64,000 bases of DNA from Chalara sp. BL73 (lineage: Eukaryota; Ascomycota; Leotiomycetes; Helotiales): assembly GCA_918026815.1 (NCBI GenBank), contig CAKJVC010000092.1, positions 1,236,888-1,300,887 of the forward strand. Reading direction: 5' to 3'. A program made the position numbers and the translations under genes. Of this stretch, positions 38,101 through 57,417 are shown piece by piece. Position 1 is the first letter of the stretch. Each line of letters starts with the position of its first letter. The notes beneath the pieces were generated by a model, which was not told where the DNA came from, ran no database searches, and saw nothing but the letters and a program-made list of their open reading frames with translations.

Positions 38101-40000
38101 CTGGTATTTCCGAGTAAGTTTAGCAAGCGGCCAAGTAGAACGCTGCTGAATATACGTAGCCATCTGGTTATATTGGTGGTCCGCTGCAAATGAGGAGCGC
38201 CCTGGGCAGGAAATTGGCAAGTATTTAGGAGTCTATGCATTATTGGGTGTGTTGGGGCTGTTGGCATTATTGCTTTTCTGCTGGTTAGTTTTATTCTTTA
38301 CCAAGCTTGATAAGTTCTGACCATACCTATTTATAGGAAAATGATCATTATAATAGCGCCAAATTCCGGCAGAAAGCTCCATGAGCTTCTTTTACGACGT
38401 GCATTATGGTTGGGTTCCTCTTAAGTTATTGTGTCGTAACCTAACATATTATGTACAGGGCACCACTGACCTTCCACACGAAGACTGACATTGGAACTAT
38501 TTTAAACAGATTCAGTCAGGATATACAGCTCATAGACTTTGAAGTCACTACATCTGGTATGAGTGCAGCTGAAGGTCTGTTCGCTTAATCATTAGTTATC
38601 CGGCAGGTTGTTGACTTACATCACTACAGCTTTCAGCACAACAATCGCAAGATTGATCATGGTGTGTATCACAGCTAAATATGTTACTGCCGTTATGCCA
38701 TTTACTTTGGTTGTTGTGTATATCATTCAGAAAGGTTATCTTCGAACGTCACGGCAGCTTCGCCATCTCGACCTTGAGGCCAAAGCACCCGTTTATTCAT
38801 TATTCGTCGAAACTCTGAATGGTCTAGCTACTATTAGAGCTTTTAGCTGGCAAGAGAATCTTCGGAGACGGAATCACATACTTCTTGATGCAGCGCAAAA
38901 GCCTTTCTATTTGCTCTATTGCATTCAACGTTGGCTTCAATTGGTGCTCGATATGCTGCTCGCAGTGTTGTCTATACTTGTGGTTGTGTTTGCTCTCAAG
39001 TTTAGAAGTGAAACAAGCGGCGGTAGCACCGGCGTTGCACTTGTAAATGTACTTACTTGCGGACAACATCTAGTCTTGTTTGTCCAGAGGTGGACTTTGC
39101 TGGAAACTTCAATTGGGGCCGTGTCGCGTCTGAGAGCTTTCTCATTACAAACCCCTTTGGAGACTCGACAGGACTCAGCACTGGAACTATCCACTTGGCA
39201 ACCAAAGGGATCTATTGAAATTGACAATATAAGCTGTTCATACAGGTAAGCAATTGTCCATAGTTAGTCACGCGTATTCTAACTTTTCACAGTGTGGATT
39301 CGCTAGTATTGCGAAACGTAACACTCTCAATCCCCCAAGGCTCAAAAATTGCTATTTGTGGCCGCACAGGAAGTGGCAAAAGCTCCTTCATTCTATGCCT
39401 CCTGCAGATACTGGACCTTTCGAGTGGAAAAATATCCATCGATGGGCTCGATGTCGCTACATTGCCTAGGGAGAGTGTGCGTTCTGCATTTGTTACGGTG
39501 CCTCAGGATTGCATGCTGCTCGATGGCAGTATCCGATTTAACCTTGATCCTCGAGGTTGCGTAAAAGAGACCAAAGTAGAGGAGGCGTTGCGCAAAGTAC
39601 AGCTCTGGGACATCATAAGCAATGCTGGACTGGACAAATCCGTAGATAGCCTGCATCTCTCCCATGGCCAATTGCAGCTTTTCTCGTTGGCTAGGGCAAT
39701 GCTGAGTAGCGCCAACATCCTCATTCTAGATGAAGCGGTTAGCAGGTATGTTTCACCTTTTCTGGAAAGTCCACTAGCACTAACTTTCGTAGCGTGGACC
39801 GTGAAACTAATATATTAATGCAATCACTCATCCGGAATGAGTTCCTTGAGCATACCGTCATTTGCGTGGAGCACCACTTGCAAAATATTATGGACTATGA
39901 TAAAGTTGCAGTATTTGACTCTGGTGCACTAGTTGAGTTTGGATCTCCAGCTGTATTGCTGAATGAACAGTCCAAGTTTAGCGAGATGGTAATATCTTGA
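35102..40000 (+). CDS. full-length ABCC-type ABC transporter (multidrug resistance protein family)
   Basis: A multi-exon gene encodes an exporter with an N-terminal TMD0 and two TMD-NBD halves. It starts MSHDWCGTDIENSFGPVV, as fungal ABCC proteins do. NBD1 has Walker A IVGPIGCGKSTLLKTVLGE, signature ISGGQRQRI just before an intron, and Walker B KLAVFDDVFSGLDT. NBD2 has ICGRTGSGKSSFILCLLQIL, signature LHLSHGQLQLFSLARAML, Walker B ILILDEAVS and D-loop SVDRET. The H-loop region reads VICVEHHLQNI rather than the common AHRL. NBD1 with Asp-Asp and NBD2 with Asp-Glu at Walker B is the usual asymmetric ABCC pattern. Apparent breaks near 36420 and 36700 resolve as short introns, so the gene looks intact. 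It probably exports amphipathic anions or toxins. It adjoins the nitrogen island but membership is unproven. Confidence 0.9.
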
Positions 40001-40225: not shown

Positions 40226-41299
40226 CTATATTTGACGTGTTTCCAGTTTTACGAAAGCGATAGCTCCCGTCGACGGGGTACAATTCAGATACTCAAAGTG
40301 AACATCCCCAGCCTTAAGTACAGACACTTCATGCCAAGTCCTCAACCTGCGCTTTTCTCCGAACGTCTTCGCATGCTTGATGGCTCCAAGAAATATGGCC
40401 TTATGAGAGGGATGTTTCTCAGCCCATGACTCCAGGTCGGCAAGACTGCGGAAAAACCCAGCGGCGCATGTTTCCCTCAGTATTTGCTCTGTACTACTAC
40501 CTTTGTTTCGGAGAAACCTTAAGCCAATTGTCCCAGTGGCAGATGAGTTCTCCCACAGATAGCTCAATCCAGTTCTCAAAGCGGGCTCGAGCTTGGTCTC
40601 GTAGGCCGCGCGTTCTTCACTTCCGCAGTTCTCCCAGAACTGCCCGGATCTGATGTGCACTATGTTCTCATAGTTCGAGCCTGACAGATATTCCCCATGA
40701 CCTTTGGGAAAGGGGGTAGGTGGCGCGGTTTCGGTTTCTGCGGCAGGGAGAAAGAGGTCATGGCCTGAATCAGGGATACGATCACGTGCAGCGCCCCAGT
40801 ATGCAGAATAGGTATGCTCAGCAGGTTCTGATCGAGGGAGTCTCGCAAGGCCTGGAAGATAGTCCAGACCAGAGTAATTAGTCTCTAGTCGGCTGGCCGA
40901 GGTGGCGAAACGCTCACACCAAAGCCCGACTGAGCTTTTATTCTCGCCCAATGATTCATAGATCTGCGGTAGTCGCAGTGATTGCCAGCTCTTAGCGTAA
41001 GAGTCTAGATCAGAGTAGTAACATACGAACACATCCGATCCTGCCTCGTCATGTCCATCAAGAACAACGAATGATTCGTAAGCAGCCGGTGGTAGTTCTT
41101 CCAACCATGATTGGATTGCTATGTTCGCTGCGTTGGTGGTGGTTTGGGCAGACGAGCCCGAAGACTTCCGCTGCACACCCACGTACAGTGCGTAGACATT
41201 ATCTACTCCGGCAGGGAGCTTGAGCTGCCATCGAGGTATTGGTGGTCTGTAATTCTTCGGTTGTCTAAGGGGATAGATCCTGTTCACTGGGCAACTCAT
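40226..41299 (-). CDS. aldoxime dehydratase (phenylacetaldoxime dehydratase family, haem enzyme)
   Basis: The enzyme dehydrates aldoximes to nitriles using haem bound directly to substrate. I start at MSCPVNRIYPLRQPKNYRPP, giving about 357 residues, the family's usual length. An in-frame Met 32 codons upstream (41395) is the alternative. Visible blocks are VYALYVGVQ near the N-terminus, VGLWCERFATS and YLPGLARLPR centrally, and WAEKHPSHKAIFLGAIKHAK with the probable haem-ligand His. The last is RTWHEVSVL with the second, catalytic His, close to the order known for bacterial and Fusarium enzymes. The product would be a substrate for the nitrilase 2.6 kb away in divergent orientation. A TCTTCCGCGG site lies about 180 bases upstream. 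Confidence 0.88.
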   Translation of the reverse strand: MSCPVNRIYPLRQPKNYRPPIPRWQLKLPAGVDNVYALYVGVQRKSSGSSAQTTTNAANIAIQSWLEELPPAAYESFVVLDGHDEAGSDVFVCYYSDLDSYAKSWQSLRLPQIYESLGENKSSVGLWCERFATSASRLETNYSGLDYLPGLARLPRSEPAEHTYSAYWGAARDRIPDSGHDLFLPAAETETAPPTPFPKGHGEYLSGSNYENIVHIRSGQFWENCGSEERAAYETKLEPALRTGLSYLWENSSATGTIGLRFLRNKGSSTEQILRETCAAGFFRSLADLESWAEKHPSHKAIFLGAIKHAKTFGEKRRLRTWHEVSVLKAGDVHFEYLNCTPSTGAIAFVKLETRQI

Positions 41300-41480
41300 T
41301 TGCTTGGTCCTGTTATGACGGCTTACTGCGGAATTCAATGAGGCTGTAAAGCGAGGTACAAACCAGAGGTCAATCCTGTGTTGACTTATTCCCATCTAGA
41401 TGGGGGTATGCCGTATTTATGAGTCATCGGCCATCGAGACACCAACGATTGCATCTGCGGAACCATAGCCGTTTGTCCGC

Positions 41481-41490
41481 TCTTCCGCGG
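41481..41490. promoter_or_regulatory. CCGCGG-centred candidate regulator site, aldoxime dehydratase promoter
   Basis: TCTTCCGCGG, within the inverted repeat CTTCC-GCG-GGAAG. The same ten bases occur upstream of the flavohemoglobin gene at 52373. CCG/CGG half-sites are what Zn2Cys6 regulators bind. Confidence 0.4.
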
Positions 41491-42131
41491 GAAGTGCCGC
41501 ACATGTGCACTACCTAAAATCAGCAAATAATTGGCACAGCCATTCTTGTTCATTAATGATTTTAACCCCTGTACCATCTCTATTGCATTTAGTAATATTT
41601 ACGCAATATTATTTATTTCGTAATTCAAAGCTGAGAAATCCTATAGAGTTACTTTTCTTTTGACATGAAGTCGAGCATATATATGGAAGTAAACATAAAC
41701 TTACATTAAAACTTATTTTTACATTTAGGTTATGGAAAGGCGTGGTTACGTAGCAATAAATCAACGGTAAATATCTTATTTGCTATCGAAAAGTATAAAA
41801 TATCACAATTCTTGTTGGTGTCTATCTGAAATGCCACAGTTTCAAGCACGTTTCTCTAAACATTGAACTATTTTTGGACTTTTAACTTGTAAAGATTTTG
41901 CTTTATACTTTCGCTTCTTATCTGTCCTTTGTAAACGTCCAGTAACTTATGCTTTATTTAATACTTGAAAATTAGAAAAATCTAAGAATAAGCACACTTT
42001 TTAGAATATAATCTAAGGTGCCTAAAAATAGAATGACCATTTTACTTATACTCGGAACTCAAGTAGGCTAATAGGTTTTTTTTTAATAAAATCGAAAACT
42101 AAAATTTTAATTTTAATTCTTGATAGAACTC
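41491..42131. other. AT-rich island
   Basis: From about 41580 to 42120 the sequence is conspicuously AT-rich with no open frame, ending at the dead end of a GH3 relic. It could be RIP-mutated repeat sequence, but I see no transposon motif. Confidence 0.5.
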
Positions 42132-43480
42132 CTATCCAAAAAGAACAACAATGTTATCAATACAGAAATTGTCATCATACCTCTCTTCCAGATTCAATGT
42201 TGCAAAGACCTCAACACCACCGCAGTTCATAAAGTTCCGACTTATTTCCGTCCAGTTGGTGTTATCAATGATTGGGATGTCATCGATAAAGAATTTGGCT
42301 TTCTCAGTAGTTGGTAGGCTCAGCTGATAAGTGCCAGAAGTTACCAGCTGGAAAATGCCTCGTACTTGATAGCAAACCTTCTGCTTGTGGAGAGCTGCAG
42401 GAGTATCACCATCACTCATTAGGTATACCAGAGAATTGTGCCAGTGTGTTGTAGCAACCACACCACCTTGGAAACCATATCCGGGATAAAATCCGACGTG
42501 AAAGCCAGTAGATTTTCCATCCGGGGTTCGAAGAATGCTCCCCATGGGTGGTGGCTGGAGTTGCGTAAAGATCTCCCGATCATGCATTGTCTCAATCGAT
42601 GAGTTCATTGCTGTTGCTGTCTCGCAAATAGAGCAGTAAGGCGTGGTGATATTATATGGATTGGCATTAGCTCTACCCGTGCCTTCAGTTGTTGGTGCCT
42701 TTGCATTGGTCCAATGACAGCCAGTTTACATATCTTATTTGCACCCAGGAAAGAGCGCTATCATTCTTCAATAATAAAGCCCCGCCTGCAGCAGCACCCC
42801 TATTCGTTTGACGGAATTCCTCCTTATTCATGGAATTTGCGGCCTCATGTACACGTCAGTCGCCATTCTCAGCTGCCGTTCGTCCGCCGAAATCCCATTC
42901 GAAATGTCTTCGAGTAAGTCGGCTTGAGAAAGGGCTTGTAGTAGACGTGTCACACTGGGGTCAACATGATCTTGATCTGACAACTTACCGACCGAACTGC
43001 TTCTGCGAGCGCTTTGCCATATCGAGTTGGCTGCCCAGGCGCTTCCAGGTCTGTATGGGCGTTCAGGCTTCTGATGGTATAATTGAGACCACCCCAATTG
43101 CTCATCACAAGTCTATCAAATCCCCATTCTTCGCGAAGAATATATTTCACGAGGAACTGGCCAGTGTCTGCATGTTCTCCATTTATTTTGGGGTAGCTCG
43201 TCATAACTGTCCACGGCTGGGATTTTAGGGCCATATTGAACAAGTATATCTCCCGCAGAGTTCGCTCGTCGATTTGCTCATCCATGTTGGAACGCCTGGT
43301 CTTCATGTCATCCGGCACATAGTATTTCATGCCAGCGCTGACTTCCCGGCTTTGGACACCTTCAAAATTTGAATTTCAAGTCGATCGATGTTGCAAGCTT
43401 CCCACACATTTTGCCCCGAGAGTAGTTGGCATTTCTCGTCAAGTGTCAGCTCGTTCATGATTTGAGCAATGCTCAAAGAA
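42132..43480 (-). pseudogene. GH3 beta-glucosidase relic with PA14 domain
   Basis: On the minus strand the N-terminal block MNELTLDEKCQLLSGQNVWE is followed, after a frame change, by MKYYVPDDMKTRRSNMDEQI and ERTLREIYLFNMALKSQPW. Then come VMTSYPKING, LREEWGFDRLVMSNWGG and LNAHTDLEAPGQP. This is GH3 order, but about a hundred residues between the first two blocks are missing. The catalytic nucleophile Asp of MSDW is replaced by Asn. A PA14 domain (TGFHVGFYPGYGFQGGVVAT, FFIDDIPIIDNTNW) follows at 42132-42608 and the C-terminal domains are absent. Internal deletion, frameshift and lost nucleophile all say pseudogene. It sits between the aldoxime dehydratase and nitrilase genes. Confidence 0.85.
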
Positions 43481-43875
43481 CGGTTCGCCGTGGTGGAGAA
43501 TGATTCGATACAACTTTTAAACTAGACAAAACCAAATGACAACAGGATCAAGGCTTATTAGTTTGCAGCCTTTGTCTTAGACCTTACCAAATGCCTGAAA
43601 TGGTTTCTAGGATGGTTTAGACCCACAACACTGCGGGCTATTCTCGGCAAGAATGATTGCCATCCCTCTAGATTAAGCGGAACGGATGGCACTCTTCCAC
43701 CGGCAATTGCGGGGAACACGATTCGATGCTGAAATCAGACAGAAAGCGACCTGAATACTCCTTATGCATCTCATATCATATTAGCAGTCTTGAGCTGAAT
43801 GTCTCTTCGGGCCTGACTGTTTCTTTACTACATAAGTCCCTATTTCCGGCAATTCTCCTCCCTATCACTTGCACA

Positions 43876-44976
43876 ATGGCGGGTCCGATTCGTGTTGCTG
43901 CCTGCCATGCCTCGCCCGTCTTTCTTTCTGCCAAAAAAACGACAAACAAAGCTGTCTCTCTCATTCAACAAGCAGCAAAGAATGGTGCTAATTTGGTTGT
44001 GTTCCCCGAGACCTTCATTCCAGCATTCCCGGTCTGGAGTTCCATACGCGCACCTATAGAAAACCATGGACTTTTTCAGGAAATGGCAGAGCAGTCAATT
44101 TTCATTGATTGTGAGGAGATGCATGCGATACGAATGACGGCGAAAAAGACGAATACCATCGTTAGTATTGGCATATCAGAGATAGTTCGATATAGCTCCG
44201 CTTGCCTATTCAATTCCAACGTTATAATCGGGCCGCATGGCGAAATTCTCGTGCACCACAGAAAGCTTATGCCGACATTTTTCGAAAAATTGACTTGGAG
44301 CCCAGGTGATGGACATGGCTTACGGGTTGCGGAAACTGCGTTTGGGAAGATTGGAAACTTGATTTGTGGGGAGAACACCAACCCGTTGGCCCGTTATTCA
44401 CTCATGGCTCAAGGAGAGCAGTTACATATCTCGACATGGCCTGCTATATGGCCGACGAGAGCTTCCTGCGCAGATAGAGGCGCTATCTCAGGCGACGATA
44501 TGGAAAAGGGGACTAATTATGACAACATTGCTGCAAATAGAACAAGGGCATCTGCTCACTCTTTTGAGGCTAAATGCTTTGGTATACTCTGTTCTGGGCA
44601 CCTGGACAATAGGGCAATAGAAGCAATAGCAGCACCATCAAGAAGTTCGAGCTACATCCGCAGTATCATCGAACATTCACCACGTGCTGCAACGATGTTC
44701 TTAGACCCTACCGGAGCGTTACTGCCAGGCTACACTGTTGACCTGACCTCAGGGGAGAAACAGCAGAAAGACTTTTTACAAAATGAGGAGGACATATTGT
44801 ATGCTAATATGAATTTAGCGGATTGTGTTGAAGGAAAGCAGTATCATGACGTAGTTGGTGGTTATCAGAGGCTTGATATCTTTGAATTAAAGGTCAACCG
44901 CTCTCGCCGGGAACCGGCTGTTTTCTTTGAAGAATCTTCTCCAGAGACGGCAAATTTAGATGAGGAGGCCACTTAA
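43876..44976 (+). CDS. nitrilase (arylacetonitrilase-like)
   Basis: It hydrolyses nitriles to carboxylic acid and ammonia. I start at MAGPIRVAACHASPVFLSAK, the normal nitrilase N-terminus, giving 366 residues; the upstream 50 in-frame codons look like leader. The Glu-Lys-Cys triad is complete: VVFPETFIPAFPVW (E45), HHRKLMPTFFEKLTW (K130) and NLICGENTNPLARYSLMAQG (C164). ISTWPAIWP follows as in fungal arylacetonitrilases. With the divergently placed aldoxime dehydratase it forms an aldoxime-nitrile-acid route. A TCTTCCACCGG sequence at 43693 resembles the sites upstream of other genes in the island. Confidence 0.93.
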   Translation: MAGPIRVAACHASPVFLSAKKTTNKAVSLIQQAAKNGANLVVFPETFIPAFPVWSSIRAPIENHGLFQEMAEQSIFIDCEEMHAIRMTAKKTNTIVSIGISEIVRYSSACLFNSNVIIGPHGEILVHHRKLMPTFFEKLTWSPGDGHGLRVAETAFGKIGNLICGENTNPLARYSLMAQGEQLHISTWPAIWPTRASCADRGAISGDDMEKGTNYDNIAANRTRASAHSFEAKCFGILCSGHLDNRAIEAIAAPSRSSSYIRSIIEHSPRAATMFLDPTGALLPGYTVDLTSGEKQQKDFLQNEEDILYANMNLADCVEGKQYHDVVGGYQRLDIFELKVNRSRREPAVFFEESSPETANLDEEAT

Positions 44977-45819
44977 CACTAGAAATGATGCCACACTATA
45001 GGAATGTCTGCATCCACGTCCAATAAGAGCTCCTCTGCCCAAATTTTCGAAGAGAGGATGAGTATGAAGAAAAAGAAAGGTATAAGCAGATTATAGTAGT
45101 CGCCTCAGTTTCGTTGTACTTTCGCCACTTAGGAAGCATGGATGACTATAGTCAATCCCAATTCTCGAAGCCATTTTTAAAATATCTAATTGGTTAGTTC
45201 TATCCATGCCCTTCTAGTGGCAACAGCACAACGAACCGGGGGGGGGGGAGAACTGTATCTCGTAATTCAGCTTGTTCTTTTCAAGTTGTAATATATGGCT
45301 GGAAGCCACTTTAATATAAGCCACAAAAATTAAGAAAGAATGCGGACCTAGACTGTCAAGAGCGGAGAAAGGCAATGAAAGGCCGCCGTAAACCATTCTG
45401 TCACAACCACGACCCTTCTCCCTAACTGTCTGGCTGTCCAATCTCCATACTTTTCAAGTTACCCGATGCGCGGATACGGGGAAAGAGGAGAGCCTAGTGA
45501 GGGCTTCATCGACAATGCGACCCCAAGTCCAAAAGGATACATTGAAAGTGCTCAGTGCTCAGTGCTCTTTTGTTCTTATCTTTCGTAGACCATACAATAT
45601 CGCCTCCTTCATCAAACACTTCTCGTCTCGATTCATGTGTTCGTAAGAGCCTAGATATCACCTTCAGTTCTCCGGTCTCTTCATCAGAGCGCCGTATCAG
45701 CTGGGGTAATCTCCCTTTGCGTTGCCAACTCCGTAACCACGCCCACGACGGCTCTCTTATGGGCTCCCTAAATATTATGCCATATGTATCACACACTTCA
45801 GCCTTAAAATCACCAATAC
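44977..45819. other. intergenic with an 11-G run
   Basis: A homopolymer of 11 G lies at 45238-45248. Minus- and plus-strand frames at about 45506-45827 show no nameable domain. Confidence 0.4.
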
Positions 45820-46275
45820 AACCGTGAACCCCTGCGCAAAGTTTATAGGCATTATTCTCGTAAGTTCTGTGCGTACTTTGTACATGGCTTGTATTTCTCC
45901 TGTTGGGCTCTATGTGCTCTCCTTACCATAGGCATCTCATATGGAGTAAGTTATCGCCTGCATGATACACACCACCTCATATTAATGTGCAAAGACTTTA
46001 GCCTTGGCACTATCTACGTGGGCATGGAGAATTCTATCCTTGTTGCAAGGTGTTCCTCCTATTTCGGCTATAAGCATTCTTTCCTTTCTTCCGGAATCTC
46101 CTCGCTGGCTCGCATATAACGACAAGAAGGAGGAGGCACTTGAAGTGCTTGCAAAGATCAACAGCGGTTACATAGAAGCTCCTACTGAGTATGAAAAGAT
46201 GGAAATGTTCCCATTAGAAAGATGTAGAGGTAAAATACGCAAGACTGCCCTCCCATCGCGAATGATAAGCTAATA
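45820..46275 (+). pseudogene. MFS sugar-transporter relic
   Basis: The plus strand preserves AWRILSLLQGVPP, FLPESPRWLAYNDKKEEALE and VLAKINSGY. This is the end of helix 6 and the central loop (PESPRWL, EEAxxVLAK) of fungal sugar porters. A preceding piece (FSCWALCALLTIGISYG) matches helix 5 in another frame. No other helices remain on either side, so this is a short dead fragment. Confidence 0.75.
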
Positions 46276-46743
46276 TAAAGATGATTTAGTTTAGATCCCT
46301 TGCCTACCCTTAAGATCATTAAGCAAGGGATGACAGGGCGGAGTTATACTGGTAGATAATAGTATCCTGGGTGCCACAGGCTACAAGGACTCGCTAGAAT
46401 ATCTTGGCACTCTAGAAACGGGTTCTAAAATATTACTGTTCCACTCGTCCATGGCTTTGAGATGAGCGTCAACCTTCCTGAAGAATAAGCACCACAATGG
46501 TTGGGATTATTAGACCCTTTAGGCCCTTTTCACGAGACTGGAGATACAGAGTATTACTCGCGTAGAATATGCATTATTACATCGGTTTTTTGATGACTCA
46601 CAAGGACAACCACCTCAAGAAAGCCTATATTCATAGCCCATCGTTGCTTCTGCTTGAAGTGCACATCTCCGCATATCATCAGACAAAACGCATCCAAGCC
46701 GAGAGTCTAAAGCTCCGCCATTAAGCCAGAACATTATGTTTGC
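46276..46743. other. intergenic, nothing recognised
   Basis: Between the transporter relic and the GDSL esterase 3' end. No feature is supported. Confidence 0.5.
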
Positions 46744-47908
46744 TCAAGCGGAGAGATAAGTTGCCCACACGCTCCGTCCGTTAATTATGTCGACGAAGTT
46801 ATTGGCTACAATGCGCCATGTTTGCTCACTAGGATGAAGTTCGTCATACCACATGAATGCATCAGGATTATCCTTGTCAATGCGAACACAGTCAGTACTT
46901 TTAAGTGTGCAGTGGTTTATATAACCAGTAACATTATAGGGCGGTGTGCCGTTCAGGTATTGGGCCGGGTTATGGTAGATGTCGCGCATCTAAGAGAAGA
47001 GGTCAGTTGGCACATTTGGTAAATTTCGCACACTAGCTCACCAGGCCCTCAAGATTCATCAGGACAAACGATGCTCCTGGGTATCTTTGTTGAAATTTCA
47101 CTTCTAGTGGCATCCTGCTCTTATAAATTGCGTTTGTGAGGCTCACCTGTTCCAGCATTCGCTGCGAAACACCCGTGATGTTGCTGTACTTGTCTGGCCA
47201 AAATTGTGTCGCCTGCAGTCCGCCATCATCTGGCATAGCATATTGTGGCGCAAGGTACATTGCTCCCAGAGTGTGAATGACAAAATAACGACCGCCATGT
47301 TTGAAGAGGCGGCCGATTTGGCGGAAAACACAATCAACGTAGTCCATAATAGTAGTCCCAGGAGTTTGAGAGTCAGTCAGAAATGCATATGCTCCAATAT
47401 CATTTCCACCTATCATGATCGAGTAGACAGTTGACTCTGCTGAGGTATTCATAAACTTGGTTCCTCTGGAAGACGAGTATCGGCTATCCTGAATAAAGGC
47501 GGGGAGCTCGTAGGTATCTATATCCGGAAACATTTCCCCAGTTGCACTGTAGATCCGCGGAGTAAGGTTGTTAGCACATACGGCTCCCGACACAGCGTAG
47601 TTGTGAATATTAGCTCCTGTATACTGTCCGACATAGGACGGCCAAGGACGTCCGCCGTCCGCAGCAACAAAATCCTAAGGCAAAGGTCAGCAAGTTCCGT
47701 TATATGGGTTTGGGGATTCAGATGAACCAACACTGTCGCTAACCCAACCAACTGGAGGGGTACTTCCATTGTGGGACCCAACATAATTCAGTCGTCCGTT
47801 ATCTGTCCAACTATCTCCGAATACGACGAGGTCGGTAAAGTTCTGAAGATGCCACGCATTCGTGGTGGCTCCAAAAACGAAGACAAAAAGTGAAATAAAC
47901 AATCCCAT
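46744..47908 (-). CDS. secreted GDSL/SGNH esterase
   Basis: The start MGLFISLFVFVFGATTNAWH is a signal peptide. Block I is LVVFGDSWTDNGRLNYV. An intron whose donor follows VGWVSDS joins to DFVAADGGRPWPSYVGQYTG and NYAVSGAVC (block II Gly). Block III is SIMIGGNDIGAY. The last exon (46744 to about 46990, after an intron following MNLEGL) gives MWYDELHPSEQTWRIVANNF with the Asp-x-x-His dyad. All four catalytic blocks are intact. Members of this family release acetyl or acyl groups from plant polymers or lipids outside the cell. It shares no obvious pathway with the nitrogen genes flanking it. Confidence 0.9.
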
Positions 47909-49269
47909 AGTGTAAAGACTTTCTGCCTCACTCGGTGCAGACACGAACAATTGTGCTTTTGCTCTTTCCTCAGGTATTTTTTATTACAAATAAAATTAAA
48001 TGTAGTGCCTGGTTGACATATCTCAAATTTAATGACTTCACAGGTTAGGCAAAGTCTTTAAAGGATAAGTTATTGAGCTAGATTCTCCATCAGTTTTGTG
48101 CTCGGTGGTTGTTCGGTCAAATGGCTTCCTCCTTGCGGGATCACATCTCCACATATTCAGTCTACTCCATAGGAATACAATCAGTAAGCGTGGAGGAAAG
48201 AACTACAGTATCTTCCATCACAATTTCTAAACGAGGGATAATATAGCATCCACATTTAAGACAATCAGTGTGCGCCATTAGACAGATATGTCCACTCCTT
48301 TCGAGAAGTTGAGTTAAAGTCGTGAAGATGAGTATGCAGACTGGGGTATGAATAACATGTAGCTTGGATTCCACAACAACACTGAGAATCTGATATAGTT
48401 AGTAGTCAGCTCACTTCAAGAAGCTACAACATGTTTTGATATCTACGGAACACAAAACTACTGGCTCTCCTCTCCTTCATGGAAAAGTCAAGCCTGCTTT
48501 GGGAGCCAGACCTCCTTCCGCCGCTTCCGCTGTATCCGCGGATCACGATTCAAGGGAAGGTGAACAGACTCTTAAGAGCTAGACATATCAAAAAGCTGAG
48601 ACATCCAATTGATAAAGTGTCCCACTAGCATGATACTAGAAAATACCCCATGTACTAGCGTGCGGCAATTACGGGGAGATGGGATGGGATGATGGAAGGC
48701 GGCTATTAGCATCCCAACGCCAATCACGGATCCACAACTGAAGCGTCTTCCTTCTCTTCAATCAGATACATTTCCATTGTATAGGATGGGCAATGATTTG
48801 GTTTTTCTCAATCAATTGATAATGTAAAGATTTGGCATTACCTCCATTTGCTCATCTAGTATCTAGTGCTAATATATTACTATCTCCGCATTTAAAGCTT
48901 CCTAGACTAGCAAAAATGTATTCACCATTCTTGGATTATAAGATCAAATTGCGTAGCAACTAGCCAACCAGTCTCTTCGCCATAAAGCACATGCAACGGA
49001 GCGAATAGCATGTGCATCAGATTGCGGAGGGCAGGGAACACAATAACCACCATTGTGACTTGGACATTAAGGGAGTGCTTTCCTATCCCCGACTTGGATC
49101 CATTAAGGGCCCCATACTTTATTCACGTAGGGGAAACGTTGGATTTTTGCATACGAGGCATCAACAAAAATACAACCTTCCGCTCCCAAAAGAATTTGTC
49201 GAATGAACATATATTCAAGCGCTCAAATTAACTCATTGAATTTGTCATCTCACCAGGATACTGTTCAAT
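47909..49269. promoter_or_regulatory. shared divergent upstream region of GDSL esterase and nitronate monooxygenase 1
   Basis: About 1.4 kb with no convincing gene. It contains CTTCCGCCGCTTCCGC followed closely by a CCGCGG palindrome, about 730 bases before the monooxygenase start. Confidence 0.5.
48534..48543. promoter_or_regulatory. ATCCGCGGAT palindrome, candidate regulator site
   Basis: A perfect 10-base palindrome with a CCGCGG core. It is preceded by two CTTCCGC units and lies upstream of nitronate monooxygenase 1. Confidence 0.35.
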
Positions 49270-50376
49270 ATGACTTCACTTCAAGCATCTCCAAATATGC
49301 TACAGCATGATTACCCTTGGACGGCGACTCCTCTCATTGTTTCGGCGCCGATGGCGAAAGTTGCAAAGCCCGAGCTCGCTGTAGCTGTCTCTAAGGCAGG
49401 GGGGATTGGCTTCATTGCTGCAGGCTATTCCAGTGACAACCTTCTAGATCTACTCGAAGAGACTGCCGAGCTCTTATCAGGAGAGGATGCTATGATCAAA
49501 CCGCCCAGGAACACTACAGCTGAGCCTGTTATCCTCCCTGTTGGCGTAGGATTTATTGCTTGGAGCGCCTCACTGAAGACAGCAATACCTGCCCTGAAAA
49601 TTTATCGACCCTGTGCCATTTGGCTATTTGCTCCCAAGGCAGATTTCTACGACTTGGTCCCTTGGGTAAACCAGATCAGGGATGCAACTTCACGAAAGAC
49701 GAAAATCTGGGTGCAAGTTGGCAGTGTGGCAGATGCTATCACGGCGGCTACAATATTACAGCCAGATGTTCTAGTCCTTCAGGGATCCGACGCGGGTGGG
49801 CATGCGCTGGCTCGTGGTGCCAGTATCATTTCGTTGGTGCCGGAGGTGCATGACAAACTTCGGGAGATTCAGCCACAGAATATTAAGCCTATCCAATTGC
49901 TTGCAGCAGGCGGCATTAGTGACGGCCGCGGGGTCGCCGCTTCGATGGTCCTAGGCGCCCAAGGATGCGTGCTGGGGACTAGATTTCTCGCTAGCCCGGA
50001 GTCCCTCATTGCAGATGGCTACCAGAGGGAGGTTCTACGGGCCTCCGACGGCGGTTCCAGCACCGTTCGAACCACAATATATGACAAAGTACGTGATATA
50101 CATGGCTGGCCATCCTGCTACGATGGCCGAGGCTTGGTCAACCGGACATATACTGAGGCGGTCAGCGGTTTGAGTTGGGAGGAGAATCAAGACCTTTACC
50201 TGCAGGAATTGGAGAAAGGGGATGAGGGATACGGTCCCCAGGGTAGGCTAACAACTTATGCTGGAACTGGGGTAGGTCTTGTCAAAGAAGTTATGCCCGC
50301 GAGGGATATCCTCATGTCCGTGCGGAGAGAGGCAAATAAGCTTTTATACCAAACACTATATGGTCCGAAACTGTAA
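49270..50376 (+). CDS. nitronate monooxygenase 1 (2-nitropropane dioxygenase family)
   Basis: An FMN enzyme that oxidises alkyl nitronates, including propionate 3-nitronate, to an aldehyde or keto product plus nitrite. A single exon of 368 residues. Landmarks are the N-terminal TPLIVSAPMAKVAKPELAVA, AVSKAGGIGFIAAGY (FMN phosphate side), VLQGSDAGGHALARGASIIS with His178 in the position of the catalytic base, LLAAGGISDGRGVAASMVLG, and GTRFLASPES. Full length with no break. A second, divergent copy lies at 54319. Between them lie the flavohemoglobin and tautomerase genes, which fit handling of the products. Confidence 0.93.
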   Translation: MTSLQASPNMLQHDYPWTATPLIVSAPMAKVAKPELAVAVSKAGGIGFIAAGYSSDNLLDLLEETAELLSGEDAMIKPPRNTTAEPVILPVGVGFIAWSASLKTAIPALKIYRPCAIWLFAPKADFYDLVPWVNQIRDATSRKTKIWVQVGSVADAITAATILQPDVLVLQGSDAGGHALARGASIISLVPEVHDKLREIQPQNIKPIQLLAAGGISDGRGVAASMVLGAQGCVLGTRFLASPESLIADGYQREVLRASDGGSSTVRTTIYDKVRDIHGWPSCYDGRGLVNRTYTEAVSGLSWEENQDLYLQELEKGDEGYGPQGRLTTYAGTGVGLVKEVMPARDILMSVRREANKLLYQTLYGPKL

Positions 50377-50855
50377 TATATTTCTTAACGGAGTATGTTA
50401 GAGTGCCAATTATTGGATCACCATAAAATATTTCTCGGTTGGTTATGCGTACAGTTGACCTAATATTGCTTCGCTTCTATTTTACTTTGATATTTCTAGG
50501 GGGGAATAGAATGAAACACGGCTTGTGATAACTTGCGCCTCAAGATTCTTGAATATAATGAATGGGCGTTTACATACTATCGTTTCAGGTTCTTGTTGGC
50601 GTCCTACGCCTCCCCGTTGTATTTTTCACGTCTCACTAGGATTAGCCTCGTTATTCAACAAGTTTAGGGGTGAGCGAAAGGACATGATCAGCTACTTGAA
50701 ACGCGGCTGGATACTGGCATACATTTTAACATGAAATTGGACCTTTCTATAACAGCTGTACTAGATTCTTGTGCCTAGCTGCCGGTTTCGATAAGCTCTG
50801 AGGAGCGCTCTAGTCTAAAACGAGATATCTAAATTAATGTCCATAAACTCAATCG
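50377..50855. other. convergent 3' flanks, nothing recognised
   Basis: Between the 3' ends of nitronate monooxygenase 1 and flavohemoglobin. No gene is supported. Confidence 0.5.
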
Positions 50856-52106
50856 TTACGTCCGCGCTTGAAATGAATCTGCTCCAAAGCTTTCCATCTT
50901 AATCCTAGACTCTGGCACATTATTCTCAATTAATATCTCCCTAATATCAGACATGAAACTGTCGGGACCACAGATATAATACTCCGCTACAGATCCAAAT
51001 AGCAGATCATTTTGTTTATCTAACCTTGCAAGGTCCATGCGGCCAGCGTGTTGGAATCTGACACCCAAGGTATCCTTCTCGATCAAGTTCTTGATAAAGA
51101 TATTTGAGCGCACATTCGGAGCTTTTTCGCATATTTCGCTTATATGCCTGCCAAAAGCCTGAGAGCCAGTTCGCCTTGCCGCCTGAATCCAAGAGATGGG
51201 TTGGGTAGAGCCTGAAGCTACTAAACTGTTCAGCATAGACATGACAGGCGTAATTCCGACACCAGCTGAGATAAGCACAACAGGCAAAGCCTTCTCAACG
51301 ACTTCGGGACTAAGGTAGTAATCTCCATGAGGATGTGAAACCCGAATTCGATCCCCTTCAGGCATGTTGTGCAAGGTGTTGGAGACAAGCCCAGCGTGGG
51401 CAGGTGACGTCCCATCAAATGCGTTAGCACCATCTTCGCGCTTTACGCTAATGCGGTAGTAATCGTTATGGTATGCGTCGCTGAGGGAGTACTGTCGTGC
51501 TTGCATATATGGAAGGCTTGGAACATGAACCCGAACAGATAGATATTGACCAGGCCGAAATGATGGTAATGGTTTGCCATCAATCGGCTGGAGATAGAAC
51601 GAGGTGATCTCTTCTGATTCTTTGATTTTTTTTGCTATTTTAAATTCCTTCCACTCCGCCCAATCTGCATGTGGTGCATACAGTTTTAGCTCCTGCGCAA
51701 TCATTAAGTTTGCGAGCTGTTTATAGGCTGCAGCCCAAGCCTCTAAAATATCGGTTGTCAAGGCGGCTCCAAGAACTTCTCCTAGAGCTTCTAAAAGATA
51801 TTGTCCAACGATATCATATTGTTCTGGCTTTACAAACAGTGAGGCATGTTTTTGGGTAATGCTCTCAACAGCTCCGCCCAGTGCTGCGAGGTTATCGACG
51901 TTGACTGCATACGCATATAATGCACCTGCTAGAGCCTGAGACTGGTGTCCATTAATCTGCTTGGTTTTATTAAAGATGTTAAACAGATCTGGGTTCTTCT
52001 CCAACATGTTCTTATAGAACGTGGTGGTAATGTTGGTACCATGCTCTGCAAGTAAAGGCACTGTCGACTTGATGACCGCGATTTGCTCTGCCGAAAGAGT
52101 CATCAT
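50856..52106 (-). CDS. fhb: flavohemoglobin (nitric oxide dioxygenase)
   Basis: It converts NO and O2 to nitrate using NAD(P)H, protecting against nitrosative stress. A single exon of 416 residues, the usual size. The globin domain has TTTFYKNMLEKNPDLFNIFN with Tyr31 at the distal B10 position, and ESITQKHASLFVKPEQYDIV with the proximal haem His87. The reductase part has QARQYSLSDAY (FAD-binding RxYS), PVVLISAGVGITPVMSMLNS (NAD(P) pyrophosphate) and the C-terminal YYICGPDSFMSDIREIL. All domains are intact. Its place among nitronate monooxygenases, which generate nitrite, suggests pathway-specific detoxification rather than a general stress gene. Its upstream region has TCTTCCGCGG. Confidence 0.96.
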   Translation of the reverse strand: MMTLSAEQIAVIKSTVPLLAEHGTNITTTFYKNMLEKNPDLFNIFNKTKQINGHQSQALAGALYAYAVNVDNLAALGGAVESITQKHASLFVKPEQYDIVGQYLLEALGEVLGAALTTDILEAWAAAYKQLANLMIAQELKLYAPHADWAEWKEFKIAKKIKESEEITSFYLQPIDGKPLPSFRPGQYLSVRVHVPSLPYMQARQYSLSDAYHNDYYRISVKREDGANAFDGTSPAHAGLVSNTLHNMPEGDRIRVSHPHGDYYLSPEVVEKALPVVLISAGVGITPVMSMLNSLVASGSTQPISWIQAARRTGSQAFGRHISEICEKAPNVRSNIFIKNLIEKDTLGVRFQHAGRMDLARLDKQNDLLFGSVAEYYICGPDSFMSDIREILIENNVPESRIKMESFGADSFQART

Positions 52107-53343
52107 GTATCGGGTTGTAGAGGGGAAGACAAAAAAAAGTTTGTGTTTGGGTTGCGATCACAGTTGGTGTGCGAAAGAAGATGAGAGTAAAAATATTTTT
52201 CCGATGTTGCTCACGCTCTCATATATATATGCAATGGTCCTCTTAGCCTCGTATAGGCAATGCAGCCGGAAATTTAATTCGCCTTCATTCTCGATAAGGT
52301 TAGTCTTACCAAAGTCTGCCAGGCAGAGAGAAAAAAAAAGGAAAAAAAAAGGATCATCATATGCGTCGGGTCTCTTCCGCGGAGAGTTCAGATGCTCCGT
52401 GGAGAAGCGTTCTTATTATAGGCCTGAGTTTCTGACTTGTGACTTTACAACAGGGTGGATCTGGCGAAACACACTCGATGGCAGTGTATATTTAGAGAAA
52501 TATTCTGTGTATATGCGACGCGATGCTGTTACTATTATACATTTTTTAACTAGGCGCTACCCTAGTGTCTTTTAAGGAAAATTTCCCCATCCATCGTATC
52601 TTTAGCAATCCCGTTACAAGTAAATAGCTTATCTGGATTTTGTGATCATGTAATTTGAACGCTAAGTAGACAACTTCTTGGATCCTTGCAGCTGTGATGG
52701 CATTTTCCTTCCACCGAAAGATTCAGTCTTGGAAGTTTGCGAAGCATTCGAAGTTGAATTTGGTAGTCTCCAAAGCCACAGAACATGCTGATACTGATAT
52801 CGAGCACCCTGTAATAACTGGGGGACTGCTTATCGCGTGCTTTGCTGGCATGTGGTACCGCAGACTCCATAATTAATGAAACGATTCTCATGGCTACATA
52901 ATGGCAGATTGCTGAGGCTGTGCCACTGCCAAACTATTTCCCAGTGCTCTTCATGCTTTTGCTGAGGTACCAATAGAGTCAGGCAAATTCTGTAATCACT
53001 ATGCACAAGCCATGGAAGCCTTTCTTGCTGCTATGATGGATATAAGTCAGATGTAGGAGGAGTATATAATGAAAGGCTCAAATATATCTAATATATAAGA
53101 AGACCGTGGACAGAAAGAGTATTAAAGGCCGATCAATCAGTTAGTATGGTACTTTGAACTATTTCCATAGCTCTGAAATCTGTTAGAAACATGTCGTGGA
53201 ATGGTCGGGAGTTTTGCTAACAATTATTGTCAGACATTTCATTGCGGTAGGGTCAAGACCAGCCCATATCGCTGCTAGGCAGTACCCAAATATTCCAAAA
53301 AGAAATATACCTTTCTTTTAACTGGCCGTGCATAATAACTCAA
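52107..53343. other. flavohemoglobin upstream region and tautomerase 3' flank
   Basis: Contains A-rich runs at about 52331-52350 and a CCGCGG site. A plus-strand frame of 184 codons (52021-52575) overlaps the flavohemoglobin start and has no family features, so it is not called. Confidence 0.45.
52373..52382. promoter_or_regulatory. CCGCGG-centred candidate regulator site, flavohemoglobin promoter
   Basis: TCTTCCGCGG, about 270 bases upstream of the start and identical over ten bases to the site at 41481. Confidence 0.4.
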
Positions 53344-53828
53344 TTATGCGGACGGAATATCCCTAGTCGTAAGCTTTCCAGTCAAAAACTGAGCTTCTCC
53401 ATTCCCAAAACTCCAATCTGCAGTTGTATTTTCGACACAGGAGATAATCAAATCCTCTCCAGAAACTCCGCATGATGCGAAGAGTTCTCGCTGGAGTGCC
53501 TTGTAGGTTGCCTGCTTCTGCTGGTTGTTGCGTCCCTGCTGGAAGATCTGAATAATGACGAGTTTGTTGCTCCGGATGAAGCCGAGATTCGTGTCTTCAC
53601 ATATGAGTTCGTAGTCATCATGTTGAGTCACGATCTATGTTGTAGGATAACACCGCAATTAGTACCGATGTGTTACCGTTCCTTAGGGACAGGAGCTCTT
53701 ACCTGGTATCGATCACGTTCAGGGGCATTGAAATGGTTAAGCATTACCTGTTGGACGATGTCGGCTAGCTTCTTGATCTCTTCAGAGGATCTAACCCCCT
53801 TAACAACATCGATTTTAACAAGAGGCAT
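53344..53828 (-). CDS. tautomerase-superfamily protein, malonate semialdehyde decarboxylase-like
   Basis: Two exons (53703-53828 and 53344-53634) give 138 residues starting MPLVKIDVVKGVRSSEEIKK, so Pro-1 becomes the N-terminal catalytic residue after Met removal. Downstream, FNAPERDRYQ and IVTQHDDYELICEDTNLGF, then VENTTADWSFGNGEAQFLTG, closely follow the bacterial malonate semialdehyde decarboxylase pattern as I remember it. The Asp next to RYQ (position 38 here) matches that enzyme's Asp37. Of its two Arg residues (73, 75), the first appears as Gln74 and the second as Arg76. Family members also include cis-CaaD and 4-OT-like tautomerases. A decarboxylase acting on the malonate semialdehyde released from propionate 3-nitronate would fit the neighbours, but the Arg change makes this a hypothesis. 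Confidence 0.82.
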
Positions 53829-54318
53829 GATGAGTAAAGTAAAGAATGTTAATCACCAACCTCCCGGCACATTCATCATGGGAATCTTTATGTTAAGTTG
53901 TTCTTAGTCACCAGTAGACTTGCCGCGGCTAATACCCGCAATACCCGCAATACCCGCAATAAGCCCATCAGTTAGATAGGCCATGACGTGTGATATTGAA
54001 AAAAAAAACTAAAAAAAAACTTGAATTTCTCATTCAAAATTAGCTGAATAGAGAGGCAAATAAAGCCTACATAAGGGGATTATGTGATTCAAGTTTGACA
54101 TAGCAGATATCCTCTCAAGTCAGGGATTAGTCAACGGCTGGACTAGCCTCTGGGTAGATGTCTCTAGTGGTATCCACGAATTTAAAAGCAGGGCTATATA
54201 ACTAAGTTGTTCTCCGTGTTGGAGCACCAATCCCTTATGCCCCAGTTCCAGTCGAACTGCCCACTGCCGAGACGGCCGTCATTTTTGCATTCATTTTCCG
54301 GCGACAACGCTACGCAAT
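53829..54318. promoter_or_regulatory. shared divergent promoter of tautomerase and nitronate monooxygenase 2
   Basis: The two starts are 490 bases apart on opposite strands. Inside are GCCGCGGC (53922-53929) and, directly next to it, a tandem repeat of nine-base units. A runs lie near 54000-54020. Confidence 0.6.
53931..53957. repeat. three tandem AATACCCGC units
   Basis: Three perfect copies plus a partial fourth, two bases after the CCGCGG core, in the divergent promoter. The spacing of nine bases is close to one helical turn, as expected of clustered protein-binding sites. Confidence 0.75.
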
Positions 54319-55392
54319 ATGGCAAGTCACTCCCTGAAATTGACGGAAAAGCTTGTGAGTTCATATCCATGGATGCGCACTCCATTTATCGTTGGAGCGC
54401 CAATGCGGCTTATCGCAGGACCTGAACTCGCAGTTGCCATCTCGTCTGCTGGAGGTCTGGGATTCATTGGACCAGGTAACGACACGAGGCACACGGCTAA
54501 GATCATAAACCGTGCCAAAGAGCTGATTCCTGCCAGGCTTTCGATGAGTAGCACTTTAAAGACATCTGCTGAGCCTCCTCTACCGGTTGGCGTTGGATTT
54601 CAAACGTGGAACGATGACTTGGAAACTGCGGTGTCTCTGATCAGAACTTATAGACCTTGTGCGGCTTGGCTGTTTGCCCCAAGGCATGGGCAAGAAGAAT
54701 TCGACTTGTGGACAAAACGTATCAGAGATTGCTCCCCGGACACATGTGTTTGGATCCAAGTGGGTACGCTCAGAGAGGCTCTGCAAGCTACACAAAGCCC
54801 GACGCCTCCTGACGTGCTTGTCATTCAAGGCGCAGATGCTGGAGGACATGGCAGAGCAATTGATGGGATTGGGCTGGTGACTCTATTGCCCGAGATTGCT
54901 GATGCAACACAAGACTCAAATATTCCACTCATAGCTGCAGGGGGGATTGCAGATGGTAGAGGTGTAGCCGCAGCGATCTGCCTAGGTGCCTCAGGAGTCG
55001 CAATGGGAACACGATTCCTTGCCGCGACAGAAGCACAAATTAGCAAAGGCTACCAGAACGAGGTCGTCCGTGCCAAAGATGGTGTGGCATCTACCCAGCG
55101 CACCACTCTCTATAATCAGCTTCGTGGCACTATTGGCTGGCCTGAGGAGTTCAGTCCACGTACGATTGTAAATAGAAGCTGGTACGAGCACAAAGCTGGC
55201 AGGCCGTTTTCGGAGCTGAAAAGACTACACGACTTGGCATCGGAGGCTGGTGATGCAGGATGGGGTCCTGAAGGGAGGCTCGCAACATATGCGGGTGCAG
55301 GAGTTGGCTTAGTTCGTGACGTACGAGATGCGCAAGAGATTGTTATTGGCACTCAAGATGAGGCAAAAAGACTAATAAAGAGCCTACAGTGA
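54319..55392 (+). CDS. nitronate monooxygenase 2 (2-nitropropane dioxygenase family)
   Basis: A single exon of 357 residues, paralogous to the gene at 49270. Landmarks are TPFIVGAPMRLIAGPELAVA, ISSAGGLGFIGPGN, VIQGADAGGHGRAIDGIGLV with His177 at the catalytic-base position, LIAAGGIADGRGVAAAICLG and GTRFLAATEA. A late block, EGRLATYAGAGVGLVRDV, matches that of the other copy. It shares a promoter region with the tautomerase, so the two are probably co-expressed. The two paralogs differ enough to have different nitronate preferences. Confidence 0.93.
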   Translation: MASHSLKLTEKLVSSYPWMRTPFIVGAPMRLIAGPELAVAISSAGGLGFIGPGNDTRHTAKIINRAKELIPARLSMSSTLKTSAEPPLPVGVGFQTWNDDLETAVSLIRTYRPCAAWLFAPRHGQEEFDLWTKRIRDCSPDTCVWIQVGTLREALQATQSPTPPDVLVIQGADAGGHGRAIDGIGLVTLLPEIADATQDSNIPLIAAGGIADGRGVAAAICLGASGVAMGTRFLAATEAQISKGYQNEVVRAKDGVASTQRTTLYNQLRGTIGWPEEFSPRTIVNRSWYEHKAGRPFSELKRLHDLASEAGDAGWGPEGRLATYAGAGVGLVRDVRDAQEIVIGTQDEAKRLIKSLQ

Positions 55393-55713
55393 GCCTGGCT
55401 ACGATGGAGCATTTCTAAGGCCGCTCAAGATGTAAATACTTATAAGATTACCAGAAAAATAGCAGTCGGTCAATCCGTTAATGTTCCTAAGCTCGATTAC
55501 TTTAGACAACGAAGTTCTGTAAGTTATTTAAAAAAATTGAAGTAGTTCTCAGACCGATAGGTCATCTATATTACACCTAGGTGCTATTCGTACACAAGTC
55601 TAAGGATAAGGGAAGCTTATATCATTTTAACTGTCTAGATTCCTGGGCCGAAACCAAGTTTGCTTCCACATGTCCGGGGCAATGATTTAGCCCCAAACTT
55701 CGGTGGTGCAGAA
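55393..55713. other. convergent 3' flanks, nothing recognised
   Basis: Between nitronate monooxygenase 2 and the regulator 3' end. Confidence 0.5.
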
Positions 55714-57417
55714 TCAGACTAAATTAATAGGTCCCGCTCCTTGGTACATATTGATTATGTCTGTTCGCAAAAATTGTTCTATGTCAAATTCTTGCAAACC
55801 CGGCATATCTGCTACTAAGCCTTCCAGCCAGGAGAACTCCTCAGAAGTGGGGTTCAACTGCTGTGGTGGAGTCATTATTTCTCCTTGTTGGTCATGCATA
55901 TTAAGGGCATCACTAAACACTTTTATATCTTCCCTCCTCCGCTGCTGATAGAGCAAAACTAGTAGGCATGCGGTGCTATAAGCAAGTTTCATGGTTTCAG
56001 TATCGTATATGGAAGCAACAAGCTCCAATGTCCGCATGGCATCGGGCAGTACTGCTATTGATGCACGCGTGTCCATCACGAGTAGGATACAGATGGTGTG
56101 AAATGGTACATTCGCCACGTGGTGCCATGGGCAACAGTCCCTGACTAAAACACGGGCAGAATGAAGGCCATTCTTCAGCAATGTAAGGATTTGCTCTGTA
56201 ATGGCGGAAGAGTTGTTGAAGCTCCATGTGCCGAGATGCCGAAGGATGCAGAGTACAAGGTTACACTGGGCGAGAACTGATGGCGGCTGCGTGTGGATGC
56301 CGTTTAAAATTTGTGAGAGTGTTAATTCAAGGTCTTTGTCATCTCCCGCTTTTCCAGGATCTAGACTAGCCGACGCTGGCAGGAGATTCAGCAGCTCTGT
56401 CGTATAGTCACCAGATTTTGGTGATGGAGGGTATGCAAAAATGCTTTGGAGTGAGACCCTAGAGAGCCCAAGATCAAAGGAAGCCCACATATTCAAATGT
56501 TGTGCTACTCCAACAAGCCGCCTTCGGATATCTGGGTCATACGACGCGCTGCGTGGAAAGACGGTATCACCCGATGGTTCAAGGTGGAGGCCTGAAGCCT
56601 CAACAAGATGCATTAGAGTAGAACTTGCTATCCAAGTTGGATGAGGTTGAGCTGTTAGTCGCATATAGATAACTCGGAGAGCCCAGCCAGTTAGAAGATC
56701 CACAGTCGGGGTTTCCGATATTTGGTGCAGGTCCAAAATAGAGCGAGCTGATTCCACTAGGTGAAGTTCCGTGATTGTAGGATTTCTTTGAGAGAACAGG
56801 GACCCAAGAGCAGCAACGCCACTAAGAACACTGTCATACAAATTATCGGTCAGGGTCATTCGCCACCGGGCTGCTAGCCGCTCAAAATATGTATGACGGT
56901 CGATAAACCCATAACACGGGTGTACTTTCGAAAAGTAGACGTTGGCTAGTTCTTTTATATCTCCCTCGGAGGTTATGTCAACAATAGACAAAGGCGGGCA
57001 GGGTTCGGGGCCAGAACGTAACTGCCGCGAGCCAATATTCCACCCAAAGAGGCCTAATTTTGGTGCATTCGCTTGATCAATCTTGAGGCCAATCTTTCTC
57101 ACAAATGCTGCTCCAGAATTCGCCTCCAGGCACCGGACGAGATTTGGAGAGCCCGATGATAAATTTGTCTGGCTCGACGATATGTGTGCTTGGTCGGCGG
57201 TAGTGACCACTGGCTCTGAAGATATCCTTGTCGCGGTTGATTGTTGCGTAAAATTGTGAGGTTTTGGTTGTGATTGAACTTCGTAATAGCAATCATAACC
57301 CCAATTATTGCAGGTGACGCAGGGGTTTATGCCGTTACATCTCCTTTTACGCTCACGACACGGCTCACAAGCTACCCTGATACGCTTGCGCTTTCGCTGT
57401 TCGACTGTGTTTGCCAT
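55714..57417 (-). CDS. Zn2Cys6 transcription factor with fungal-specific middle domain
   Basis: A single exon of 567 residues. The zinc cluster is at the N-terminus: RVACEPCRERKRRCNGINPC then VTCNNWGYDC, with Cys17, 20, 27, 33, 36 and 43 (CX2CX6CX5CX2CX6C), preceded by the basic RKRKRIR. The middle homology region is recognisable in YFSKVHPCYGFIDRHTYFER and ALRVIYMRLTAQPHPTWIAS. The C-terminal acidic/Pro segment precedes a short tail. It is intact and located at the edge of the nitrogen island, so it is the natural candidate for its pathway regulator. Zn2Cys6 proteins bind CGG/CCG half-sites, consistent with the recurring CCGCGG sites. Confidence 0.93.
   Translation of the reverse strand: MANTVEQRKRKRIRVACEPCRERKRRCNGINPCVTCNNWGYDCYYEVQSQPKPHNFTQQSTATRISSEPVVTTADQAHISSSQTNLSSGSPNLVRCLEANSGAAFVRKIGLKIDQANAPKLGLFGWNIGSRQLRSGPEPCPPLSIVDITSEGDIKELANVYFSKVHPCYGFIDRHTYFERLAARWRMTLTDNLYDSVLSGVAALGSLFSQRNPTITELHLVESARSILDLHQISETPTVDLLTGWALRVIYMRLTAQPHPTWIASSTLMHLVEASGLHLEPSGDTVFPRSASYDPDIRRRLVGVAQHLNMWASFDLGLSRVSLQSIFAYPPSPKSGDYTTELLNLLPASASLDPGKAGDDKDLELTLSQILNGIHTQPPSVLAQCNLVLCILRHLGTWSFNNSSAITEQILTLLKNGLHSARVLVRDCCPWHHVANVPFHTICILLVMDTRASIAVLPDAMRTLELVASIYDTETMKLAYSTACLLVLLYQQRRREDIKVFSDALNMHDQQGEIMTPPQQLNPTSEEFSWLEGLVADMPGLQEFDIEQFLRTDIINMYQGAGPINLV

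Follow-up and report, generated by a model that had tools for sequence, protein, structure and literature searches.

Contig C86 (1,300,887 bases) of the 58.66-Mb, 199-contig assembly of the ascomycete Chalara sp. BL73 ends in the 64-kb stretch of DNA analysed here, referred to below as the window. Within about 17 kb, the window carries genes for an aldoxime dehydratase (Oxd), a nitrilase, two proteins of the family that includes the nitronate monooxygenases (NMO1 and NMO2), a flavohemoglobin (FHb), a tautomerase resembling malonate semialdehyde decarboxylase (MSAD) and a Zn2Cys6 regulator. The reading that we somewhat favour is that these genes make up two small catabolic or protective blocks lying side by side at the contig end and at most loosely linked. 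In block A, comprising the Oxd and the nitrilase, an aldoxime would be dehydrated to a nitrile, which would then be hydrolysed to an acid and ammonia. In block B, comprising NMO1, FHb, the tautomerase and NMO2, FHb would convert nitric oxide (NO) to nitrate, and the flavoproteins may handle a further oxidised-nitrogen or semialdehyde product. The Oxd–nitrilase and FHb–NMO pairings would each have been kept together on their own account, and it is unlikely that the regulator controls both blocks in full. We propose two blocks rather than one because unrelated genes lie between them and no promoter word is shared; substrates, the flow between enzymes and regulation are inferred.

A preliminary description of this DNA had named the seven genes, and all were found in place, with families identified by Pfam profile matches judged against curated cut-offs and by matches to solved structures; NCBIfam profiles served as a second standard. 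The window Oxd has a complete active site, as would be expected of a working enzyme. Residues R172, E139, S218, H299 and H323 are all present in an alignment of 122 sequences (the window protein, a second genomic copy on contig C49 and 120 listed homologues), in which the Arg is conserved in 122/122, the Ser in 118/122, the distal His in 121/122, the proximal His in 122/122 and the further Glu in 119/122. By analogy with solved bacterial enzymes, we take R172 and S218 to be the active-site Arg and Ser, and H323 and H299 to be the distal and proximal His, respectively. The nitrilase holds the complete Glu–Lys–Cys triad ascribed to it earlier—Glu45 (FPETF), Lys130 (HRKL) and Cys164 (CGEN)—and its NCBIfam family match falls under the cut-off. 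The two genes are divergent with 2.6 kb between them, and no regulator gene was found among the Pfam matches and open reading frames of that interval. The aldoxime-to-nitrile-to-acid route that had been proposed for this pair is thus a well-supported prediction, given the full Oxd site, the full triad and a second Oxd–nitrilase pair in the same genome.

The arrangement is akin to the aldoxime–nitrile pair of Bacillus OxB-1, Bradyrhizobium, Fusarium graminearum and Ochroconis mirabilis in that an intact haem Oxd stands beside a nitrilase with a full triad, but differs in that the window genes are divergent, with a GH3 relic and no regulator between them. In O. mirabilis the Oxd is reported to adjoin a nitrilase, likewise without a regulator gene, and F. 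graminearum is cited as a further case (PMC4738786). An ABC transporter gene at window positions 35382-40000 adjoins the Oxd gene on the opposite strand.

The second pair lies on contig C49 (L009:8796-9890 and L009:4971-6067), is also divergent with about 2.8 kb between the genes, and has frames of no known family between Oxd and nitrilase. The C49 Oxd shares 26% identity with the window Oxd over 313 aligned positions and carries Arg, Glu and Val at the positions of the window Oxd's Arg, Ser and His, with a gap at the further Glu. In these residues it resembles the ‘REV’ active-site type, if the letters denote these three positions; a review describes that type as widespread among fungal homologues and poorly known (PMC11568032). 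No FHb stands beside the C49 pair, the single FHb found in the genome being in the window.

Six-frame searches of the genome, in which only the best candidates were scored, returned 2 Oxd loci, 12 CN_hydrolase loci (matches merged by place), 9 NMO-family loci without the repeat on contig C118 described below, one globin and one MSAD-like tautomerase; the window nitrilase as query found two other loci and one weak match. A third nitrilase-like gene (L018:4781-5338) is on contig C195, which carries neither of the two Oxd matches. On the assumption of uniform gene placement over 58.7 Mb, and without correction for the by-eye choice of the set, the probability of each of the two Oxds lying within 2.9 kb of a CN_hydrolase locus is about 2 × 10⁻⁶, and that of FHb having an NMO-family gene within less than 500 bp is about 3 × 10⁻⁴. 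Both pairings therefore exceed chance.

Table 1. Features of the window discussed in the text (window coordinates).
Feature	Positions	Strand	Remarks
Aldoxime dehydratase (Oxd)	40229..41299	-	One open frame; PF13816, 345.9 bits (cut-off 25)
GH3 beta-glucosidase, truncated relic	42132..43521	-	Part of GH3 N domain and part of PA14; outside the pathway
Nitrilase	43876..44976	+	PF00795; Glu-Lys-Cys triad
Sugar-transporter fragment, relic	about 45808..46343	+	PF00083 positions 167-230 of 452
GDSL esterase/lipase	46744..47980	-	Several frames, introns likely; no evident pathway link
NMO1, predicted flavoprotein	49270..50376	+	PF03060 (Pfam)
Flavohemoglobin (FHb)	50856..52103	-	Globin, FAD and NAD domains
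MSAD-like tautomerase	53344..53828	-	Exons 53828-53703 and 53634-53344, one 68-base intron; PF14552/PF01361
Intergenic region, tautomerase/NMO2	53829..54318	.	Divergent; holds junction 54237
Contig-end segment repeated on C118	54237..64000	.	Equals C118:491760-501522, with another left flank
NMO2, predicted flavoprotein	54319..55392	+	PF03060 (Pfam)
Zn2Cys6 regulator	55714..57417	-	Zn_clus and Fungal_trans domains

Block B centres on FHb, the sole globin found in the six-frame search. Its Tyr30, Gln54 and His86, which we take to be Tyr B10, Gln E7 and His F8, are kept in 121/121 aligned sequences, and its score against the NCBIfam profile for NO-inducible flavohemoprotein (458.6 bits) passes the cut-off of 432. 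NMO1 ends 479 bases from FHb and is convergent with it; NMO2 is divergent to FHb, with the tautomerase gene in between and an assembly junction at 54237 that is in doubt. The nearest described arrangement is in Botrytis cinerea, where the FHb gene Bcfhg1 is reported to neighbour an NMO gene in divergent orientation, with NO inducing both (PMC9324006). The window FHb is likewise flanked by NMO-family genes but, unlike the Botrytis pair, has two of them, one convergent and the other divergent past the tautomerase. No Botrytis protein occurs among the best 120 of 3425 NMO2 matches.

The tautomerase, found once in the genome as a neighbour of FHb, matches three solved structures, all MSADs and all aligned over its length. 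It keeps the N-terminal Pro, the Asp of the DRYQ/DRFQ stretch and, at the GR position, one of two Arg residues; we assume the Pro, the Asp and the Arg pair to have the catalytic roles. The single Arg is also the state of MSAD FG41 (3mjz); where a further MSAD (2aag) has the first of its two arginines, the window protein has Gln. Unlike the solved enzymes, the window tautomerase is fungal, its gene has one intron and its activity is a prediction. Assignment to Tautomerase_3 (PF14832) was discarded, none of the genome's 8 matches to that profile falling in the window.

The preliminary description had taken NMO1 and NMO2 to be nitronate monooxygenases. At the Pfam level both belong to PF03060 (100.6 and 124.8 bits against a cut-off of 28), and they share 46% identity, but this family is wider than NMO, including FabK and NADH:quinone reductases, and for each protein FabK is a closer match than any proven NMO. 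For NMO2, the seven best solved matches by sequence are FabK-type, one of them deposited as a putative nitroalkane dioxygenase, followed by a Pseudomonas NMO and PA1024 at about the same level; for NMO1, FabK entries come first, then NMOs, with PA1024 below these. An AlphaFold model of NMO2 (built with 37 sequences; mean pLDDT 90) gives a similar fold ranking, with FabK-type entries in rows 1-15, PA1024 in 16-17, Pseudomonas aeruginosa NMO from 18 and yeast NMO at 39, although the TM-scores differ little. The NCBIfam matches of both proteins are far under cut-off, with FabK best (105 versus 453 bits for NMO2).

NMO1 and NMO2 are best named at family level, as predicted flavoproteins of a fungal PF03060 subfamily. 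The fold is the TIM-barrel flavoprotein fold of the superfamily that joins FabK, the NADH:quinone reductase PA1024 and the class I NMOs, and NMO2 also has the GGH histidine, His176, which is invariant in 37/37 aligned sequences. The class I active site is listed as Met, Asn, His, Tyr and Lys (PMC11510023), and His176 would correspond to its His. FabK is nearest by sequence and fold, yet NMO2 lies far under the FabK cut-off; PA1024 and the proven NMOs stand about equally distant from the window proteins, after FabK. Because FabK matches lead and the NCBIfam matches are far under cut-off, oxidation of nitronates by these proteins is possible, and the step from nitronate to aldehyde plus nitrite that had been assigned to them is not established. 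Two more NMO-family genes lie 10 kb apart on contig C9, one of them of another subfamily as judged by eye, with no Oxd there.

Three further genes, left out of the earlier list, lie among the named ones: the GH3 relic, the transporter fragment and the GDSL gene. The regulator is convergent with NMO2, its promoter pointing away from the enzymes, and a fungal regulator domain is present in reading frames on its right as well; a role as cluster regulator is therefore improbable. A search of six promoters for shared words of lengths 8-12 found no 8-mer in 4/6 and no 9- or 10-mer in three. Four 11-mers are each common to two of the six promoters, which by our estimate is about the chance level. A CGG-N7-CCG motif occurs once in the FHb promoter and once in the tautomerase/NMO2 promoter, with 5 occurrences in the window and after 32 CGG arrangements had been tried (16 spacings, two arrangements).

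The contig end needs care, because the segment from 54237 onwards recurs on contig C118, so that the linkage of NMO2 and the regulator to the other genes is somewhat doubtful. The genes for Oxd, nitrilase, NMO1, FHb and the tautomerase are all to the left of that point, and window positions 49000-54236 occur once in the genome. The two copies of the 9.8-kb segment are 99.83% identical, differing by 15 gap positions in homopolymer runs and by 2 mismatches side by side. Because of this pattern, one locus assembled twice fits better than a recent segmental duplication, which we consider the less likely origin of the C118 copy. On C118, the segment stands behind a type III polyketide synthase gene and a copia-type element (the latter by eye), and this flank matches C171:1-8915 with 99.69% identity; beyond that point C171 continues differently. 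With the C118 flank as A, the repeated segment as B and the C171 continuation as D, the three contigs C86, C118 and C171 show the junctions C86-left/B, A/B and A/D. These junctions are most simply explained if C118 was, as is probable, falsely joined near 491760, with C86 and C171 showing true neighbours; a translocation between nuclei is less likely, and so is a duplication of very recent date. Within the segment, positions 60447-61058 give a weak, fragment-like match to a polyketide synthase acyltransferase, under the cut-off.

Gene order was also compared among relatives, using the best 120 of 614 (Oxd), 3425 (NMO2) and 5522 (FHb) matches; equal contig size was read as the same contig and species names were paired by eye, so that strains under one name can differ. 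Each protein has a listed relative in Bisporella sp. PMI_857 (96% identity for Oxd, 98% for NMO2 and 96% for FHb), which we take to belong to the Helotiales; the fungus studied here must be closely related to it. All three of its proteins are on a contig of 1,111,728 bases, supporting, at contig level, the gene order of C86. Of the families for which a synteny check had been proposed earlier, the three compared here have contigs of equal length in Bisporella, and Oxd and NMO2 have them in Melanomma pulvis-pyrius; for Oxd and NMO2 the contigs agree in 2/9 shared names (Bisporella counted) and differ in 7/9. For Oxd and FHb they agree in 1/4 (Bisporella). As a whole, the contig evidence tends to speak against a joint cluster conserved across many fungi, Melanomma being the one hint in its favour.

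Several observations weigh against the two-block reading. The blocks are only 4.3 kb apart, with a probability of about 5 × 10⁻⁴ under the placement assumption given above, and the Melanomma Oxd and NMO2 relatives are each on a contig of 163,112 bases, when about 0.017 Oxd–NMO coincidences would be expected on contigs of less than 400 kb in the 8 genomes other than Bisporella (assuming 40 Mb and one NMO each); the true value is higher, because fungi carry several NMO genes. Block B, in turn, does not look like a conserved unit: NMO2 and FHb agree in only 3/11 shared names, two of these with uninformative 8-Mb Penicillium contigs, and the locus tags of NMO and FHb are thousands apart in three Penicillium species (N7478_004354/011759, N7532_010598/000976 and NUU61_009184/003568).

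The preliminary description had drawn all the genes into a single cluster under common control, serving to detoxify plant aldoximes, nitriles and nitro compounds or to gain nitrogen from them, a view that we consider rather unlikely. The complete Oxd and nitrilase, the confinement of all the enzymes to 17 kb and the Melanomma contigs speak for this view, and fungal Oxds are reported to take indole-3-acetaldoxime and that of F. graminearum also phenylacetaldoxime (PMC8955678). Set against this are the lack of a shared promoter word, the orientation of the regulator, the relics and GDSL gene between the enzymes, an NMO activity that is not established, an FHb with no evident role on plant metabolites, and the different contigs of Oxd and NMO in most shared names. 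The evidence for one joint cluster is thus thin. Unlikely, too, is a single set for cleaning up nitrosative damage, in which FHb would act on NO, the flavoproteins on nitro adducts, Oxd and nitrilase on oximes and nitriles from C-nitroso products, and the tautomerase on a semialdehyde. In its favour, C-nitroso alkanes tautomerise to oximes, and no second FHb was found in the genome. Besides FHb and its adjacent NMO gene, a nitrilase and a cyanide hydratase located elsewhere respond to NO by induction in B. cinerea, and the authors suggest that nitriles form upon NO exposure; yet aldoxime, oxime and tautomerase have 0 occurrences each in the main text of that paper (PMC9324006). The unproven NMO activity and the C49 pair, with no FHb beside it, also speak against such a set. 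Its fullest form, an island where NO, nitro adducts and NO-made oximes and nitriles would each be removed by a neighbouring enzyme, giving Oxd and nitrilase an endogenous role besides plant oximes, strikes us as unlikely as well.

That the genes are chance neighbours, with the adjacency of NMO2 and the regulator partly a product of assembly, is the least probable of these accounts. It would explain the C118 and C171 repeats and the different contigs in most species names common to the lists, but the three junctions fit a chimeric C118, not a chimeric C86, and the equal-sized Bisporella contigs and the small chance values argue against it. Two adjacent blocks, each with its own pairing, remain the reading to which we lean.

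In the literature searched, no paper named both aldoxime dehydratase and nitronate monooxygenase, and no description of the full set was found, including by way of 3-nitropropionic acid clusters, Melanomma aldoxime or fungal flavohemoglobin–aldoxime. The earlier statement that no such fungal cluster is described thus seems to hold for the full set, but both halves, Oxd–nitrilase and FHb–NMO, have been described. Should the two blocks form a unit, NO metabolism would be linked to the aldoxime dehydratases of fungi; if they do not, the locus is still useful in holding a canonical Oxd. Together with that canonical enzyme, the C49 Oxd, with its Arg, Glu and Val beside a nitrilase, offers a context for a group described in a review as poorly known (PMC11568032).

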